Of a DNA stretch of 44,570 nucleotides, positions 4,240 to 11,873 are shown in pieces. The DNA lies in contig OMIC01000033.1 in assembly GCA_900298995.1 (NCBI GenBank), forward strand, positions 1 through 44,570. Direction: 5' to 3'. The stretch is from Hyphomicrobiaceae bacterium. Lineage in GTDB: Bacteria; Pseudomonadota; Alphaproteobacteria; Rhizobiales; Aestuariivirgaceae. Each line of letters opens with the position of its first letter. Position 1 is the first letter of the stretch. The notes below the pieces were generated by a model. The model searched no databases. It was given only the letters and a program-made list of their open reading frames with translations, and was not told where the DNA came from. The position numbers and the translations under genes were made by a program.

Positions 4240-6282
4240 CTAGATATCCAGCCCCTCCTCGCTCACGAACTGGGCGCGTTCGGAGATGAAGGCGAAGCGG
4301 TCTTCGGGCTTGTTGCCCATCAGTTGCTCGACGGTCCGGGCGGTCGCGGCGCGGGCCGCATCCTCCAGTCCGATGCGCAGCAGGTGGCGCTTCCCCGGAT
4401 CCATCGTCGTCTCTTTAAGCTGACTAGGAAGCATCTCTCCCAAGCCTTTGAAACGGCTTACATCCACCTTACCGCGCCCAGACATCTCGGTACGCAGCAA
4501 TTCCTCGCGGTGACGGTCGTCTCGGGCATAGGCCACCTTCGGACCCTGAGCGAGCTTGTAGAGCGGCGGCACCGCCAGATAGAGGTGGCCGTCATCGATG
4601 AGCCGCGGCATCTCGCGATAGAAGAAGGTCATCAGAAGCGAGGCGATGTGGGCGCCATCGACGTCGGCGTCGGTCATGATGATGATCTTGTCGTAGCGCA
4701 GATCCTCGGCGCGGTAGGATGAACCCGTGCCGCAGCCAAGCGCCTGCATGAGATCGGCCAGCTGCTGGTTCTGGGCGAGCTTGTCACGGGTGGCGGAGGC
4801 GACATTGAGGATCTTGCCGCGCAGCGGAAGCACGGCCTGGGTCTCGCGATTGCGCGCCTGCTTGGCGGAGCCGCCGGCCGAGTCACCTTCCACGATGAAC
4901 AGTTCCGAGCCCTCCTTCTGCGAGGCCGAGCAGTCGGCGAGCTTCCCCGGAAGCCTCAGCTTGCGCACCGCCGTCTTGCGCGAGACGTCCTTCTCCTGGC
5001 GCTTGCGGATGCGCTCCTCGGCACGGTCGATGATGAAACCCAGCAGACGGTCGGCCTGTGCGGGATGCCCGGTCAGCCAATGGTCGAAATGGTCGCGCAC
5101 GGCGTTCTCGACGATGCGCTGCGCCTCGACGGTTGCAAGCTTGTCCTTGGTCTGGCCCTGAAACTCCGGCTCGCGGATGAAAACCGAAAGCAACGCCCCT
5201 GATGCCACCATCACGTCATCGGCGGTGATGACGGCGGCGCGCTTGTTCTGGGTCAGATCGGCATAGTTGCGGATGGAACGGGTGAGAGCGGTCCGCAGCC
5301 CCTGCTCATGCGTGCCGCCCTCGGGCGTCGGAATGGTGTTGCAGTAGGAGGAAGAGAACCCGTCATCACCGCCGAACCAGGCGACCGCCCATTCGACCGT
5401 GCCGTGGCCGCCCTCCTTCTCAACGCGCCCGGCAAAGATATCGTCAACCACCCGCGTCCTGCCTTCCAGCCGCTCGGCCAGAAAATCCTTGAGGCCGCCG
5501 GGGAAGTGAAGCACCGCCCTTTCCGGCGTCTCCTTGTCCCGGATGAGAGAAGGGTCACAGGACCAGCGGATCTCGACCCCGCCGAACAGATAGGATTTGG
5601 AGCGCGCCATCTTGTAAAGGCGCGCGGCGGAGAAATCGGTGTTGCCCTTGCCGAAGATCTGCTCGTCGGGATGGAATGCGACCTTCGTGCCGCGCCGGCC
5701 CGAGACCTTGCCAAGATTTTCGATCTTGCCCGTGGGTTTGCCGCGCCGGAATTCCTGCCGATAGAGTTGCTGGCCGCGCGCGACTTCGACGACGACATGA
5801 TCGGAGAGCGCATTCACCACCGACACGCCGACGCCATGGAGTCCGCCCGATGTCTCATAGGCGCCGGAGTCGAACTTCCCGCCGGCATGCAGCGTGGTCA
5901 TGATGACTTCGAGCGCGGACATGTCCCGGAACTTCGGATGCGGGTCGACCGGAATGCCGCGGCCGTTGTCGGTAACAGCAAGGTAGCCATCCGCCGTATA
6001 AGACACTTCGATCCACGTGGCATGACCCGCCACCGCCTCGTCCATGGCATTGTCCAGAACCTCGGCGAAGAGGTGGTGCAGCGCCTTCTCGTCCGTGCCC
6101 CCGATGTACATGCCGGGCCGGCGGCGGACGGGCTCAAGCCCCTCCAGCACCTCGATGTCGGCCGCGGTATAGCTGTCCTCACCGCGCGACCTAGCAGGTC
6201 CCTTTGCCGACCTCACCTTCGCCGCGGCGGGGAGGTCGTCAAACAGGCTGGCGGATTTCGAGGGCTGGGCGGGCTTTGCCAT
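4240..6282 (-). CDS. parE: DNA topoisomerase IV subunit B
   Basis: A type IIA topoisomerase ATPase subunit of 680 residues from the ATG at 6282 (MAKPAQPSKSASLF). A longer frame upstream is not conserved in character. In order it has a GHKL ATPase domain (EVLDNAMDEA near residues 74-83, then GGLHGVGVSVVNAL), a transducer domain, and a TOPRIM domain with FIVEGDSAGGSAKQ and MTDADVDGAHI. ParE works with ParC to decatenate daughter chromosomes. The length (GyrB is usually near 800) and the alphaproteobacterial N-terminal style (VRRRPGMYIGGTDEKALHHL) favour ParE over GyrB. parC is not in the window. Confidence 0.93.
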   Translation of the reverse strand: MAKPAQPSKSASLFDDLPAAAKVRSAKGPARSRGEDSYTAADIEVLEGLEPVRRRPGMYIGGTDEKALHHLFAEVLDNAMDEAVAGHATWIEVSYTADGYLAVTDNGRGIPVDPHPKFRDMSALEVIMTTLHAGGKFDSGAYETSGGLHGVGVSVVNALSDHVVVEVARGQQLYRQEFRRGKPTGKIENLGKVSGRRGTKVAFHPDEQIFGKGNTDFSAARLYKMARSKSYLFGGVEIRWSCDPSLIRDKETPERAVLHFPGGLKDFLAERLEGRTRVVDDIFAGRVEKEGGHGTVEWAVAWFGGDDGFSSSYCNTIPTPEGGTHEQGLRTALTRSIRNYADLTQNKRAAVITADDVMVASGALLSVFIREPEFQGQTKDKLATVEAQRIVENAVRDHFDHWLTGHPAQADRLLGFIIDRAEERIRKRQEKDVSRKTAVRKLRLPGKLADCSASQKEGSELFIVEGDSAGGSAKQARNRETQAVLPLRGKILNVASATRDKLAQNQQLADLMQALGCGTGSSYRAEDLRYDKIIIMTDADVDGAHIASLLMTFFYREMPRLIDDGHLYLAVPPLYKLAQGPKVAYARDDRHREELLRTEMSGRGKVDVSRFKGLGEMLPSQLKETTMDPGKRHLLRIGLEDAARAATARTVEQLMGNKPEDRFAFISERAQFVSEEGLDI

Positions 6283-6380
6283 TCGCGGTTCCGAATCGTT
6301 GCAAAGCCTGAGTATCCGCCCAGGGGGTCTACTGGCAACTCTTGACTTGCCGCCCCCTCGGAGCGCCAATCACCTTCACC

Positions 6381-7054: not shown

Positions 7055-7339
7055 ATGTCTGACCTCAATCAACGCATTGAGGCCATGTACCAGGGCGATC
7101 GCCGGGGTGCATGGCTGTTCGTGATAGCCTTGTGGGTTGTCATCCTCTTCGTCCTTTTCATGTCCTGGCCTCACATCCCTGATCAGGGTGTGCGCATCGT
7201 CGTGCTGATCGCGGCCGCCGCCGTGCTCATCTTCAACACAGCTTCGGTCGGCGCCATGCTGCGCCACTATGCCGAGGACAAGGAATTCATCTACGGGCTT
7301 GACATCAAGCACCTCGACGAAATGCGGAAGGGACATTAA
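7055..7339 (+). CDS. Small two-helix membrane protein, first gene of a permease module
   Basis: A 94-residue protein starting at the ATG at 7055 (MSDLNQRIEAMYQGDRRGAW), preceded by a good Shine-Dalgarno run GGGAGAAA. Two hydrophobic helices lie near residues 20-40 and 50-75, and the tail is charged (EDKEFIYGLDIKHLDEMRKGH). The next gene starts two bases after its stop. Three small membrane genes and a permease follow with the same tight spacing, so all four are very likely one transcript. I do not recognise a family. The gene order suggests an accessory subunit of the transporter, but that is inference. Confidence 0.75.
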   Translation: MSDLNQRIEAMYQGDRRGAWLFVIALWVVILFVLFMSWPHIPDQGVRIVVLIAAAAVLIFNTASVGAMLRHYAEDKEFIYGLDIKHLDEMRKGH

Positions 7340-7341
7340 TC

Positions 7342-7728
7342 ATGGCGCGCTACCAACCTCCGCAACAGAGCAAGTTCATGCAGTGGGTGGACATCATCTT
7401 CGTGGTGGCCGCCATTTTCCTTGCCCTCTGGCTGCCTCTCCAGGCCGGATGGGCCGGCGTCTCGCGGGCAATCGTCCCGATCGAGAACCCCACCTGGGAA
7501 GCCCTCGGGCAGACACCTGCCCAGGTAGAGCAGTGGGTGAAGCTCGGCTTCGCCGATGCCGCCGCCGCCCATGACATCATCCAGAACAAGTTCGATTACA
7601 CCATCGACTGGGTTCAGCTGATCATCATGACGGTCGTCATTGCCGGTTACTTCATCTTTCTCTTCCGCGCCTCCGACAAGGAGTACCGCGAGGTGATCGA
7701 TGAGAAGTTCAACGGCAACGGCAAGTAG
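7342..7728 (+). CDS. Small two-helix membrane protein, second gene of a permease module
   Basis: A 128-residue protein beginning MARYQPPQQSKFMQWVDIIF. One hydrophobic helix lies near residues 13-36 and a second near 91-113 (VQLIIMTVVIAGYFIFLFRA). Between them is a mostly polar loop of about 55 residues with the segment TWEALGQTPAQVEQWVKLGF. It starts two bases after the preceding gene and is followed after 11 bases by a 53-residue membrane protein. No known family is recognised. Its position between two other small membrane genes and a transporter suggests a role in the same complex. Confidence 0.75.
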   Translation: MARYQPPQQSKFMQWVDIIFVVAAIFLALWLPLQAGWAGVSRAIVPIENPTWEALGQTPAQVEQWVKLGFADAAAAHDIIQNKFDYTIDWVQLIIMTVVIAGYFIFLFRASDKEYREVIDEKFNGNGK

Positions 7729-7739
7729 GGAGACCCGCC

Positions 7740-7901
7740 ATGTGGATCATGATTGCCAACATCGGCTGGATCGTCTCCGCCGCGCTCATCCTTTGGATGC
7801 TCTATGACTGGTTCCGTACCGACACAACCTATTCCGAGGAGACCCTGACCTCGTCCCGCGAGGGCGAGATCGAGGCCGTCCAGGAACAACATCGGGTTTG
7901 A
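7740..7901 (+). CDS. 53-residue single-helix membrane protein, third gene of a permease module
   Basis: A very short gene read directly from the sequence: ATG at 7740, TGA at 7899-7901. It encodes 53 residues, starting MWIMIANIGWIVSAALIL. A single membrane helix (about residues 3-22) is followed by an acidic, soluble tail (TTYSEETLTSSREGEIEAV). A Shine-Dalgarno GGGAGA lies just before the start, directly after the stop of the previous gene. Its stop codon is followed at once by AGGAGGAAAA, the ribosome binding site of the permease. The tight packing and good start signals argue for a real gene although it is below usual annotation cut-offs. It resembles small transporter subunits in shape only. 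Confidence 0.75.
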   Translation: MWIMIANIGWIVSAALILWMLYDWFRTDTTYSEETLTSSREGEIEAVQEQHRV

Positions 7902-7912
7902 GGAGGAAAAAC

Positions 7913-9316
7913 ATGTCAAGCAAGTCCGCAGCGGCCGGCACGCCGGTCCAGAAAGTCTCCCTGCTTCGCATCCTGGGACCGGCCCATGTCTGGGCTCTCG
8001 GTGTGGGCATCGTTCTCGTCGGCGAATACACCGGCTGGAACTTCGCCGCCGACAAGGGCGGCACGCTCGCCGCACTGATCATCTGCTGGGTGATCGGCCT
8101 CCTCTATACCTCGGTCGCCATGATCGACTCCGAGGTGACGTCCACGGTAGCCGCCGCTGGCGGCCAGTATGCCCAGGCGAAGCACATTGTCGGGCCGCTC
8201 ATGGCCTTCAACGTGGCGCTCTATCTCGTGTTCGCCTACACCATGCTGGAAGTGTCCAACGCCATCCTGATCGGCGACACCATCAAGGCCTATGCCGGCG
8301 ATGGCTTCAGCGACTGGCACTACAAGGGCATCATCGCCACGGTCATCGTGGTGCTTGCCGCGCTCAACTACCGCGGCGTGCTGATGACCCTGAACGTCAA
8401 CTTCGTCATCACCGCGATCGCCTATGTGGCGATCATCGTCCTGTTCTTCTCGGTGCAGCCCTGGAGCCAGGGCACCATCCTGAAGCTCAACGAAATGGTG
8501 ACGCCGGAGAACGCTCTGCCCTACGGCTGGATCGGCGTGATAGCCGCTTTCCACTGGGGCATCTGGTACTACCTCGGCATCGAGGGAACAACGCAGGCGG
8601 CCGAGGAAGTTCGTTCACCGGCCCGCTCGCTCCCCTATGGCACCATGGCCGGAATGATCACGCTGCTCATCGGCGCGTCGCTCACCTGGTATGTCTGCGC
8701 CTCGCTGATGCCCTGGCAGTATCTGGGCTTCACCTACTATCCGCTGCTGGATGCCGGCAAGCTGACGGGCAGCGCCATGCTCGAGAACCTGATGTTCATC
8801 GCGACCATCCTTGCGGCCCTGGCCTCGGCCAATGGCTGCATCAACGATGCCGCGCGGGCCTGGTTCTCACTCGGGCGCGACCGCTACCTGCCGACCTGGT
8901 TCGCAGCTGTACATCCGAAGTTCCGCACGCCCTACCGCTCGATCGTGTTTCTTGTTCCCATCGCCCTGGCATTCGCCTTCATCGCGAACCTCGGGCAGGC
9001 GATCACCTTCTCGATCCTGTCGGGCGTGCTGCACTACACCTTCATGAGCGTGAACATCATCATGTTCCGGAACAAGTGGCCGCTGGGCACGATCCGGCGC
9101 GGATATACTCATCCGTTCCATCCGCTTCCCGCCATCGTGCTGCTGGCGCTCTGTGTGGTGACCTACTTCGCCATCTTCCTCGGCTATGGCGCACAGCTCA
9201 CGGCCATGGTGGTGTTCTATGTCATCATGTCGCTGTGGTTCCACTTCTACCGCTACCGCTATGTGAAGCGTGGCGACCAGTTCACCATGCCCTGGCCGAA
9301 GCCCCAGGGTTACTGA
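7913..9316 (+). CDS. APC-superfamily permease, ethanolamine-permease-like
   Basis: A 467-residue polytopic membrane protein with about 12 hydrophobic segments. Near the N terminus it reads GPAHVWALGVGIVLVGEYTG followed by WNFAADKGG. That resembles the GVGYVISGxYFGWN signature of ethanolamine/amino-acid permeases (APC superfamily, EAT-type). Segment IEGTTQAAEEVRSPARSLPYG fits the conserved cytoplasmic loop of the family. The chosen ATG at 7913 follows an ideal ribosome binding site (AGGAGGAAAA); an upstream in-frame start at 7898 is less likely. It is the fourth gene of a run with three small membrane proteins and is followed by a strong hairpin. No ethanolamine lyase genes are present, so the substrate is uncertain. 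It is an amine or amino acid by family. Confidence 0.85.
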   Translation: MSSKSAAAGTPVQKVSLLRILGPAHVWALGVGIVLVGEYTGWNFAADKGGTLAALIICWVIGLLYTSVAMIDSEVTSTVAAAGGQYAQAKHIVGPLMAFNVALYLVFAYTMLEVSNAILIGDTIKAYAGDGFSDWHYKGIIATVIVVLAALNYRGVLMTLNVNFVITAIAYVAIIVLFFSVQPWSQGTILKLNEMVTPENALPYGWIGVIAAFHWGIWYYLGIEGTTQAAEEVRSPARSLPYGTMAGMITLLIGASLTWYVCASLMPWQYLGFTYYPLLDAGKLTGSAMLENLMFIATILAALASANGCINDAARAWFSLGRDRYLPTWFAAVHPKFRTPYRSIVFLVPIALAFAFIANLGQAITFSILSGVLHYTFMSVNIIMFRNKWPLGTIRRGYTHPFHPLPAIVLLALCVVTYFAIFLGYGAQLTAMVVFYVIMSLWFHFYRYRYVKRGDQFTMPWPKPQGY

Positions 9317-9334
9317 ACACCACACCTCAACGCG

Positions 9335-9358
9335 CGGCCCGCCTCCCGAGGCGGGCCG
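9335..9358 (+). terminator. Hairpin terminator after the permease gene
   Basis: A perfect 10-base-pair stem (CGGCCCGCCT at 9335-9344 with AGGCGGGCCG at 9349-9358) and a four-base loop lie 18 bases after the permease stop. It is followed by TGTCCTTT, a weak U-rich tract. This ends the four-gene permease module. Confidence 0.75.
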
Positions 9359-9380
9359 TGTCCTTTGCGGGCTGAAATCC

Positions 9381-10061
9381 ATGTGGCAGACCATTCTCGG
9401 CAGCTTGCTGGCGCTCGTCCTCGCTCTGCTGCTTGCGCGGCAACTTATCCGGCGCTCGCGCCAGCAGGCCGACGAACCACAAAGGCTGTTCGGCGCCGCG
9501 CAGTCCATACTCGAAAGTCCCCTTATCACCGATGGCCAGACTGCCGGCACCTTCAGGCTTACAGGGCGCTACAAGGGATACGATGTTCTGGCAAAGGCGG
9601 TCACCGACACGCTTGCGCTGCGCAAGCTCCCCAGCCTCTGGCTGTTGGTCACGCTGCCCGGGCCGGTCCCCGTCGGCGCCACGCTCGACCTGATGATGCG
9701 TCCCACAGGCCCGACCACGTTTTCCAATTTCGATGACCTTCCTTCCAGCGTCCCCACGCCAGCGGGATTTCCCGAGCACGCGGTCATCCGCAGCGACAAT
9801 CCCGCGCTGATGCCCCCCACCGACCTCGTGCGCCCGCTGCTGCCATTGTTTTTTGGCTCGCGCGCCAAGGAGCTCCTGATCACCCCTAGAGGCGTCCGCC
9901 TCGTTGTCCTGCTGGCTGAAGCCGACCGCGCCCGCTACGGCGTTTTCCGCCAGGCGGATTTCGGCGAGGTCTCCGTTGATCCCGACCTGCTCAGGGACTG
10001 CATCGAGCACCTCATCACCTTGCGCTCCGCCATCGACAACTGGCAAAAGCAGCCATCATGA
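9381..10061 (+). CDS. Unassigned protein with one N-terminal membrane helix
   Basis: A 226-residue protein from the ATG at 9381 (MWQTILGSLLALVLALLLAR). The N-terminal helix (about residues 3-20) is followed by a basic stretch and a soluble domain of about 200 residues. The soluble part contains ADEPQRLFGAAQSILESPLI and ends near LIDDCIEHL-like acidic helices. The cytosolic or periplasmic side is not clear. I do not recognise a family. Its stop overlaps the start of the next gene (ATGA at 10058-10061), so the two are translationally coupled. It lies after the permease terminator and probably has its own promoter. Confidence 0.65.
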   Translation: MWQTILGSLLALVLALLLARQLIRRSRQQADEPQRLFGAAQSILESPLITDGQTAGTFRLTGRYKGYDVLAKAVTDTLALRKLPSLWLLVTLPGPVPVGATLDLMMRPTGPTTFSNFDDLPSSVPTPAGFPEHAVIRSDNPALMPPTDLVRPLLPLFFGSRAKELLITPRGVRLVVLLAEADRARYGVFRQADFGEVSVDPDLLRDCIEHLITLRSAIDNWQKQPS

Positions 10062-10360
10062 CCCCACAACCGATGAACCCCCGACTGGTGCTGGCCGCGT
10101 CCCTGATCGTTCCCGGCCTTGGCCACGTGCTGCAAGGCAGGACGCAGCGGGGACTGATGTTCCTGTTCTTCACCGTCATTCTTGGCTGGGTGAGCGTACG
10201 GCTCATGCCGGAGACGGCAAGCTTCTTCTCGCGCCATGCTGGCGGCATCTTCATCTACGGACTCTCAGTGATCGATTCCTACAAGATCGCGCGGGTCAAC
10301 TGGGAAACCTGGAAGTATGCTTCAAATAACAAAGCCAACGGAAGCCAGACGCAGGATTGA
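10058..10360 (+). CDS. Small membrane protein of unknown function
   Basis: A 100-residue protein (MTPQPMNPRLVLAASLIVPG...) with two or three hydrophobic stretches: about residues 8-22, 30-48 and 62-75. The opening PRLVLAASLIVPGLGHVLQGRTQRGLMF has the proline/glycine pattern of short membrane proteins of the TM2/DUF5683 kind (PGxGhxxxGxxxrG). That resemblance is suggestive only. It overlaps the previous gene by four bases (ATGA). The homospermidine synthase gene follows after a gap of about 80 bases that contains a candidate promoter. Confidence 0.65.
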   Translation: MTPQPMNPRLVLAASLIVPGLGHVLQGRTQRGLMFLFFTVILGWVSVRLMPETASFFSRHAGGIFIYGLSVIDSYKIARVNWETWKYASNNKANGSQTQD

Positions 10361-10386: not shown

Positions 10387-10442
10387 TTGACAGTCGTCGT
10401 CGCTATACCGCCCTGCGACAGTCTGACAGGAGTTTGGATGAC

Positions 10443-11873
10443 ATGATAAACTGGCCCATTCACGCCAACTGGAACGGCCCCATTGTCATGATCGGCTTCG
10501 GGTCAATCGGCCGCGGCACCCTTCCTCTCATTCTCCGGCACATCAAGTGCGACCCCCGCCGGATCACCGTCATCGATCCCGATGAATCCAAGAGCACGCT
10601 GGTCGAGAAGCAGGGCGCGTCCTTCATCAACGAGGGCCTCTCACGCAAGAACTACCGTCAACTCCTGAAGCCGCTACTCACGGCGGGTCCAGGCCGCGCC
10701 TTCATCGTCAACCTGTCCGTGGACGTGGACAGCCTCGCCATCATGCGGCTGGCACGCGAGACCGGTGCGCTCTACATCGACACCGTGATCGAACCGTGGC
10801 CCGGCTTCTACTACAACACCAATCTGCCTCAGGGCGAACGCACGAACTACGCCATGCGTGAACACATGCTGGCGCTGAAGCGCGAACTCGGGCCCGGACC
10901 CACCGCTGTCTCCTGCTGCGGGGCCAACCCCGGAATGGTGTCGTGGTTCGTCAAAAAGGCCCTCATGGACATTGCCCGCGACACAGGCGTCAAGGTGAGC
11001 GAGCCACGGTCCCGCGAGGACTGGGCGAAGCTCATGAAGCGGCTTGGGGTCAAGGGCGTCCATATCGCAGAACGTGATACCCAGCGGGGCAAGAAGCCGA
11101 AGCCCTTCGGCACCTTCGTCAACACCTGGTCGGTCGAGGGCTTCATATCCGAAGGCCTGCAGCCCGCCGAGCTCGGCTGGGGTACGCACGAGAAGAAGCT
11201 TCCCGCCCTCGGCCGCCGTCACAGGACGGGATGCGGCGCAGCGATCTATCTCGAACGGCCCGGCGCCGACACCCGCGTGCGCACCTGGACACCCACCGAG
11301 GGACCTCACTTCGGCTTCCTCGTTACCCACAACGAAGCGATCTCGATTGCCGACTATTTCACCGTGCGCGATGGCCGCAAGGTCGTCTACCGCCCCACCT
11401 GCCACTATGCCTACCACCCCAGCAATGACGCCGTGCTCTCCTGGCAAGAACTGCTGGGGGCTGGCGGTCGCCGTCAGAAGGAAAGTTATGTCATCGACGA
11501 GGCCGACATCGCCGACGGCCGTGATGAACTCGGCGTTCTGCTCTACGGCCACAAGAAGAACGCCTACTGGTACGGCTCCCAGCTGTCGATCGAGGAAGCC
11601 CGCAAGCTCGCGCCCTATCAGAGCGCAACCGGGCTGCAGGTCACGTCCGCCGTCCTCACCGGCATGATATGGGCCATCGAGAACCCGGATTGCGGCATCG
11701 TGGAGACCGACGAGATGGACTACCGCCGCTGCCTGGAGATCCAGACGCCCTACCTGGGCCCGGTCCGCGGCATCTACACCGGCTGGACGCCGCTCGACTC
11801 CATCGTTGAACTCTTCGCGCCCGACCTCGACAGGCGTGATCCCTGGCAGTTCCAGAACATCCTCGTGCGTTAG
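10443..11873 (+). CDS. hss: Homospermidine synthase
   Basis: A 476-residue protein, the usual length of the bacterial enzyme, which uses NAD+ to make sym-homospermidine from putrescine units. It opens MINWPIHANWNGPIVMIGFG followed by SIGRGTLPL, a Rossmann dinucleotide motif (GFGSIGRG). The segment TAVSCCGANPGMVSWFVKKA is typical of the family. The ATG at 10443 is preferred because AGGAG lies ten bases before it; a TTG at 10434 is too close to that ribosome binding site. The gene is followed after 12 bases by a solute-binding protein gene and then by three more genes without real gaps. Hss is common in alphaproteobacteria, where homospermidine replaces spermidine. Confidence 0.95.
   Translation: MINWPIHANWNGPIVMIGFGSIGRGTLPLILRHIKCDPRRITVIDPDESKSTLVEKQGASFINEGLSRKNYRQLLKPLLTAGPGRAFIVNLSVDVDSLAIMRLARETGALYIDTVIEPWPGFYYNTNLPQGERTNYAMREHMLALKRELGPGPTAVSCCGANPGMVSWFVKKALMDIARDTGVKVSEPRSREDWAKLMKRLGVKGVHIAERDTQRGKKPKPFGTFVNTWSVEGFISEGLQPAELGWGTHEKKLPALGRRHRTGCGAAIYLERPGADTRVRTWTPTEGPHFGFLVTHNEAISIADYFTVRDGRKVVYRPTCHYAYHPSNDAVLSWQELLGAGGRRQKESYVIDEADIADGRDELGVLLYGHKKNAYWYGSQLSIEEARKLAPYQSATGLQVTSAVLTGMIWAIENPDCGIVETDEMDYRRCLEIQTPYLGPVRGIYTGWTPLDSIVELFAPDLDRRDPWQFQNILVR

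Follow-up and report, generated by a model that had tools for sequence, protein, structure and literature searches.

Bacterial carriers of the APC superfamily are usually treated as self-sufficient single proteins, and in animals the APC/SLC7 carrier of LAT-4F2hc packs against a partner helix. Here, we describe a six-gene module, S1-S2-S3-PER-D1-D2, in which an APC permease (PER) is encoded together with five partners: three small membrane proteins (S1, S2 and S3) and the proteins D1 and D2. The module lies on contig OMIC01000033.1 of a Hyphomicrobiaceae bacterium (contig C33 of a 2.99-Mb genome, assembly GCA_900298995.1), whose entire 44,570 nt were analysed and are referred to as the window. 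By matching contigs, the genus of this genome includes metagenome-assembled genomes titled Aestuariivirga (Hyphomicrobiales). We consider it probable, at roughly 0.6, that the six genes encode a single system for taking up small alkyl-ammonium ions, with methylammonium for the N-methylglutamate (NMG) pathway as the likeliest substrate.

Several described systems resemble parts of this module. A preliminary description of the locus, made from its sequence, knew of no small partner for APC permeases; a precedent is provided by GkApcT-MgtS (PDB 5oqt), in which an APC carrier is packed against a single partner helix, with the MgtS host helix lying against transmembrane helix (TM) 5 of GkApcT (excerpt of PMC5803215). 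MgtS came from the E. coli host and turned up in the crystal, whereas the module encodes five partners along with its carrier. For D1, the closest counterpart is TtfA (PDB 6t84), which shares the arrangement of a predicted N-terminal helix and a soluble domain and which has been found in complex with the transporter MmpL3 (excerpt of PMC6593404). However, no sequence match between TtfA and D1 was found, and MmpL3, with which TtfA associates, is a mycolate transporter of the RND type. CCDC47, a component of the PAT complex and the multipass translocon, likewise lacks a sequence match to D1 and differs in being a ribosome-bound protein of the eukaryotic endoplasmic reticulum (ER); an Asterix-like partner was not recognised in the module. 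Channels of the Amt/Mep/Rh group share with PER the proposed substrate, methylammonium/ammonium, yet the models matched by PER are those of APC proteins and do not include Amt.

The unit is composed of six genes at window positions 7055-10360, which are arranged with an intervening hairpin as follows:

7055..7339, forward strand: S1, 94 aa (open reading frame list, hydropathy, profile searches)
7342..7728, forward strand: S2, 128 aa (open reading frame list, alignment, hydropathy)
7740..7901, forward strand: S3, 53 aa (open reading frame list, alignment, hydropathy)
7913..9316, forward strand: PER, 467-aa APC-superfamily permease (Pfam AA_permease)
9332..9361, forward strand: GC-rich hairpin between PER and D1, 13-pair stem (folding)
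9381..10061, forward strand: D1, 226 aa (profile conservation, AlphaFold2 model)
10058..10360, forward strand: D2, 100 aa, DUF6677-like small membrane protein (Pfam PF20382)

The open reading frames of 94, 128, 53 and 467 codons reported in the preliminary description, together with the gaps of 2 (S1-S2), 11 (S2-S3) and 11 (S3-PER) bases, proved exact to the base, and the start codons of all four genes are preceded by purine-rich stretches, in agreement with the good ribosome binding sites noted there. The proposed end of the group at the permease has to be revised, as D1 and D2, whose reading frames overlap by 4 nt in the window, follow in 85 of 87 loci. These 87 loci comprise the window, six plasmid loci and 80 contigs retained out of 182 relatives (40 of the 80 titled Mesorhizobium); profiles built from the window proteins were used to locate the six proteins, on the PER strand only. 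S2, S3 and PER were found in all 87 loci and S1 in 86, and the gene order was constant throughout, across Alpha- and Betaproteobacteria. The absent S1 (L045) and the two absent D1-D2 pairs (L032, L099) coincide with contig ends. Chance adjacency of the genes is rejected by this constant order. Gap statistics, computed without three loci whose gene starts are cut or badly placed (L082, L107, L112), gave medians of 11, 14 and 13 nt along S1-S2-S3-PER and of 45 nt between PER and D1, and the 4-nt overlap of D1 and D2 recurs in 59 of 82 loci.

Co-occurrence across genomes revealed the same regularity. S2 is present in 25 of 61 related genomes, S1 adjoins it in the same 25, and a PER orthologue exists in 23 of these and in none of the others; a distant permease of the window genome (L002) was not counted as an orthologue. 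One of the gaps is explained by a contig break inside PER (G012). In another assembly (G040), S1-S2 are located at the edge of a contig that starts just past S2 (C9, L124), and a divergent HTH-cupin regulator was observed to adjoin S1. In a sample of 289 genomes of the class, S2, PER (at an expect value, E, of 1e-60) and D1 were found in exactly the same five genomes, and among 398 genomes of the phylum S2 was found in 14. Every S2 locus inspected, a set that excludes G472 and G634, contains S1 and, where the contig allows, S3 and PER. The preliminary description had proposed looking for permeases without the small genes and for small genes in unrelated contexts: PER orthologues lacking them were seen at contig ends only, and the loci inspected, among which G040 lacks PER, showed neither S1 nor S2 in an unrelated context. 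The small genes also keep their order beside the permease in the 87 loci, except at contig ends. Of 207 plasmid records that matched the permease, 22 reach 60-80% identity, and they are the same 22 that carry S2; no S2 was detected at E 0.01 in the other 185. For the 18 of these 185 that were listed, identity is at most about 29%, and several carry the name ethanolamine permease. The association therefore belongs to the PER clade and not to APC permeases in general. Although rare and patchy in its distribution, the module is real, and regular in everything examined except contig ends and the one assembly G040.

For the small proteins, hydropathy analysis identified two, two and one hydrophobic segments in S1, S2 and S3, respectively, which bears out the one or two helices per protein described earlier. 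Conserved features were taken from alignments of 35 loci including the window, one per group at 85% identity. S1 has two predicted TM helices and, judging from its charges, probably both termini in the cytoplasm; near its C-terminus, Y72, D75, I79, Y80, D83 and D88 are invariant. The two predicted TM helices of S2 flank a probably periplasmic loop (about 56 residues) that contains a conserved TW..L.Q motif, and the protein ends in a conserved EY..VI.E.F tail. In S3, a single predicted helix is followed by a near-invariant SSREGE motif. None of S1, S2, S3 or D1 of the window reached a Pfam or NCBIfam cut-off (for S1-S3, Pfam cut-offs were compared for the window proteins), and S2 gave a single Pfam match, below its cut-off. 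Pfam matches of S1-S3, among them FixQ, BCCT and DUF4153 (best E about 2e-4), were attributed to chance similarity between TM helices. DUF4212 and DUF485 are names for the small subunits of sodium:solute symporters; neither was among the families listed for 35 members each of S1-S3 at E 0.1 (25 of 31 families in the case of S1), and the window proteins themselves matched neither in Pfam at E 1. A fusion of S3 and PER in one open reading frame, found in pSymB of Sinorhizobium meliloti Ak57 (L112), was rejected as proof of contact because S3 and PER are kept apart in four other Sinorhizobium plasmid loci, and it may be a peculiarity of the strain or of the sequencing.

These features suggest how the complex might be built. 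PER would be the APC-fold carrier of the amine, to which S1-S3 would add five predicted TM helices, the S2 periplasmic loop and the conserved tails of S1 and S3, and the three small proteins are probably permanent partners of PER in the membrane that stabilise or gate it. We regard a physical multi-subunit transporter as likely. The preliminary description had put forward a multi-subunit amine transporter module, an idea that is partly supported and came through the tests it named, although it missed two of the six genes as well as the methylamine-related neighbours considered below.

The hairpin between PER and D1 had been read as a terminator that closes the group. The hairpin itself is real: the region 9317-9380 is unusually stable relative to shuffled controls, which were computed for the window (z = -4.1), and of 30 loci chosen for folding from the 85 with D1, 26 contain a PER-D1 hairpin of -17.7 kcal/mol or below, the other four having gaps of 1-10 nt. 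However, the hairpin of the window lacks a T run after it and is absent from the output of the terminator scan; T residues follow it in some relatives (L037, L046, L102). An end of the module at the hairpin was rejected because D1 and D2, which lie beyond it, are about as constant as S1-S3. The hairpin is a probable internal attenuator more than an end, and would reduce the output of D1 and D2, both of which are probably produced at a lower level.

D1 consists of an N-terminal hydrophobic helix (residues ~5-23) and a soluble domain, and its AlphaFold2 model is of high confidence (predicted local distance difference test score, pLDDT, 91.4; predicted template modelling score, pTM, 0.87). The best fold match listed for this model is TtfA, and translocon chains, which we take to be CCDC47, were matched as well. 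At the sequence level, a scan of 35 D1 members against Pfam at E 0.1 returned just three families, each for a single member and none representing a translocon or TtfA, and the D1 profile yielded a single match among PDB sequences (E 0.45), to a different protein and not to TtfA or CCDC47. D2 exceeds the threshold of Pfam PF20382 (DUF6677; 27.4 vs 24.3 bits) and contains at least one TM segment. Given the predicted fold shared with TtfA and CCDC47, the membrane-anchored D1 and D2 may help in assembly, probably as assembly or regulatory factors of the complex. We infer these roles, like those of the small proteins, their topology and the lower dose of D1 and D2, from the features described above. 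It could also be argued that all five partners, S1-S3 included, are biogenesis or regulatory factors that depart and leave PER alone as the mature carrier. The resemblance of D1 to a translocon factor and to an accessory protein of MmpL3 would suit this explanation, as would the nearly unchanged melting temperature of GkApcT made without MgtS (58 vs 57 C; excerpt of PMC5803215). Five dedicated partners of a single carrier nevertheless suggest more than general chaperoning, and the tight spacing of S1-S3 with PER points in the same direction, so that we regard a solitary mature PER as unlikely.

The assignment of PER to the APC superfamily is supported by its scores against Pfam AA_permease (104.6 bits; gathering threshold 24.6) and AA_permease_2 (102; 27) and by a profile match to GkApcT at E 1.2e-19; mean column identity among the 35 representatives amounts to 72%. 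The AlphaFold2 model of PER (mean pLDDT 59.6) was too poor for use. The earlier label “ethanolamine-permease-like” is apt insofar as TIGR00908, the ethanolamine permease (Eat) model, is the best-scoring NCBIfam model, but the equivalog level is not reached (173.6 bits vs a cut-off of 381.75; 184.7 and 186.9 for two orthologues). PER resembles Eat proteins as an APC carrier with an acidic residue in TM1, E38, which recurs in three aligned annotated ethanolamine permeases, and differs from these three in being only 26-28% identical to them. The nearest annotated relatives viewed are ethanolamine permeases that adjoin eutBC or a primary-amine oxidase gene. At E 1, the Pfam models matched by PER included no ammonium-transporter (Amt/Mep/Rh) model. 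In a profile alignment, G37 of PER corresponds to G44 of GkApcT, which is among the residues that contact the substrate carboxylate (excerpt of PMC5803215). With the acidic E38 next to this carboxylate-holding glycine position, PER would fit an amine substrate without a carboxylate. The trimethylamine N-oxide permease TmoP (NF053774) was considered as an identity for PER and rejected, since NF053774 matches neither PER (E 1) nor two orthologues (E 1e-20). On pAMI6 of Paracoccus aminophilus, an APC family permease annotated for a methylated amine compound, TmoP, is located about 10 kb from the module; this 601-aa permease passes NF053774 (834.8 vs 690) and is a separate protein from the PER orthologue on the same plasmid.

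The identity of the amine is suggested by the neighbouring genes, whose clustering revealed glutamate-synthase-like and glutamine-synthetase-like genes. As queries for the NMG pathway, P. aminophilus proteins were used that we take to be the published MgsABC and GmaS, and matches were called at 45% identity or more. At least one NMG gene was found in 56 of the 80 contig loci (mgsA in 53, mgsB in 54, mgsC in 53, gmaS in 42), including all 40 of those titled Mesorhizobium. The MgsABC/GmaS operon of P. aminophilus is described in the excerpted source (PMC4543880). The arrangement varies: in the Mesorhizobium loci displayed, the NMG genes are downstream and co-directional, in L032 and L035 they are upstream and divergent, and on betaproteobacterial contigs (e.g., L093, L100, L101) upstream and co-directional. 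Among the related genomes, a gmaS orthologue (E 1e-120 or better) occurs in 24 of 25 genomes with S2 vs 12 of 36 without (p = 6e-7 by a Fisher test that ignores relatedness), and within the genus in 23 of 23 vs 6 of 14. In the class sample, three of the five module genomes contain a canonical mgsA, about 5 kb away (p = 0.017, Fisher, again ignoring relatedness). In Methyloversatilis universalis FAM5, amino-acid permeases are named among methylamine-responsive functions, none of them appearing in the table, and NMG genes show 6- to 13-fold increases at q-values of 0.65-0.75 (excerpt of PMC5023235). Methylammonium would be the best guess for the substrate.

Several observations weigh against this proposal. 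Outside Mesorhizobium, only 16 of 40 loci have NMG genes, and no such gene was present in the retrieved DNA of 24 of the 80 loci, of which 17 had flanks of about 6 kb at either end. Genes of the mgsABC-gmaS type were evident in only two of the six plasmid loci, which were viewed with flanks of 10-14 kb. Of the 38 genomes with mgsA in the class sample, 35 are without the module; the NMG pathway clearly does not need it. No canonical mgsABC was found in the window genome, where gmaS lies beside soxB/soxA/soxG-type genes, and gmaS and mgd-like genes are on another contig than the module; the nearest matches were a GATase (36% identity) and a fused GXGXG/Glu_synthase protein (43%). GmaS matches TIGR03105, a model whose name, glutamate-ammonia ligase, makes other amines possible. 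Neither a PER nor a gmaS orthologue was found in the G040 assembly. Finally, the function of D1 is not shown by its shared fold alone. As a separate observation, the distant GATase and the fused protein are encoded together on contig C24 of the window genome (L123:5650-8513), in a region that adjoins histone-deacetylase-like, KduI/IolB and PfkB-DUF2090 genes and possibly represents a separate amidotransferase system.

The loci without NMG genes and the missing mgsABC of the window genome would be accommodated if the same obligate multi-protein module carried another amine, such as ethylamine, ethanolamine, isopropylamine or polyamines, its link to NMG genes then reflecting shared regulation or local clustering. 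The ethanolamine permeases among the nearest relatives are compatible with this, as is a neighbour that is putatively homospermidine-synthase-like and is found in 13 of the 80 loci, in an Aestuariivirga-like group. In the window, this saccharopine-dehydrogenase-type gene (10434-11873), which we presume to be a homospermidine synthase, lies just downstream of D2, and a gyrase-B-type gene (4240-6369) flanks the module on the other side. As the gyrase-B-type neighbour is found in nearly the same loci (also 13 of 80), the first gene may reflect local gene order only, and it was set aside as a weak substrate clue. On the other hand, NMG genes recur in several arrangements in Alpha- and Betaproteobacteria, and the annotation of the six plasmid loci, which is incomplete, contains no eut gene. 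We regard a different amine as unlikely.

Other genes accompany the module in subsets of the loci. A gene of the universal stress protein (Usp) family is inserted between PER and D1 in L087, L089, L091, L092 and L106, with PER-D1 gaps of about 450-615 nt, and in Paracoccus sp. MA a Usp gene is annotated directly upstream of S1. An HTH-cupin regulator (e.g., a relative of L112:8065-8796) is located near the module in 41 of the 80 loci and is a candidate amine-responsive regulator. Both genes, along with the membrane-anchored D1 domain as a conceivable output and the conserved tails, would be expected if the module were a sensor (transceptor) instead of a bulk importer. However, PER retains the sequence of an APC carrier and Pfam scans found no signalling domain in S1-S3, D1 or D2, which makes a sensor very improbable.

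Taken together, uptake of methylammonium as the favoured function can be extended, tentatively, to an obligate hetero-oligomeric APC carrier with three small subunits and its own CCDC47/TtfA-fold factor, serving as the methylammonium permease of NMG bacteria. In this extended form, D1 would correspond in prokaryotes, through either shared ancestry or convergence, to an ER factor for the biogenesis of multipass proteins. No description of the six-gene module was found in the open-access literature among the matches listed, nor any open-access paper in which TtfA and CCDC47 are named together. How methylamine is taken up is still described as unclear for strains that lack the known oxidation pathways (excerpt of PMC6794327), and the neighbouring genes of the module give methylammonium as the first substrate to try. 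With five partners tied to one carrier, the need of an APC permease for accessory subunits becomes directly testable, and D1, which would be a bacterial CCDC47-fold protein with a single client, would offer a simple system for studying the role of this fold.

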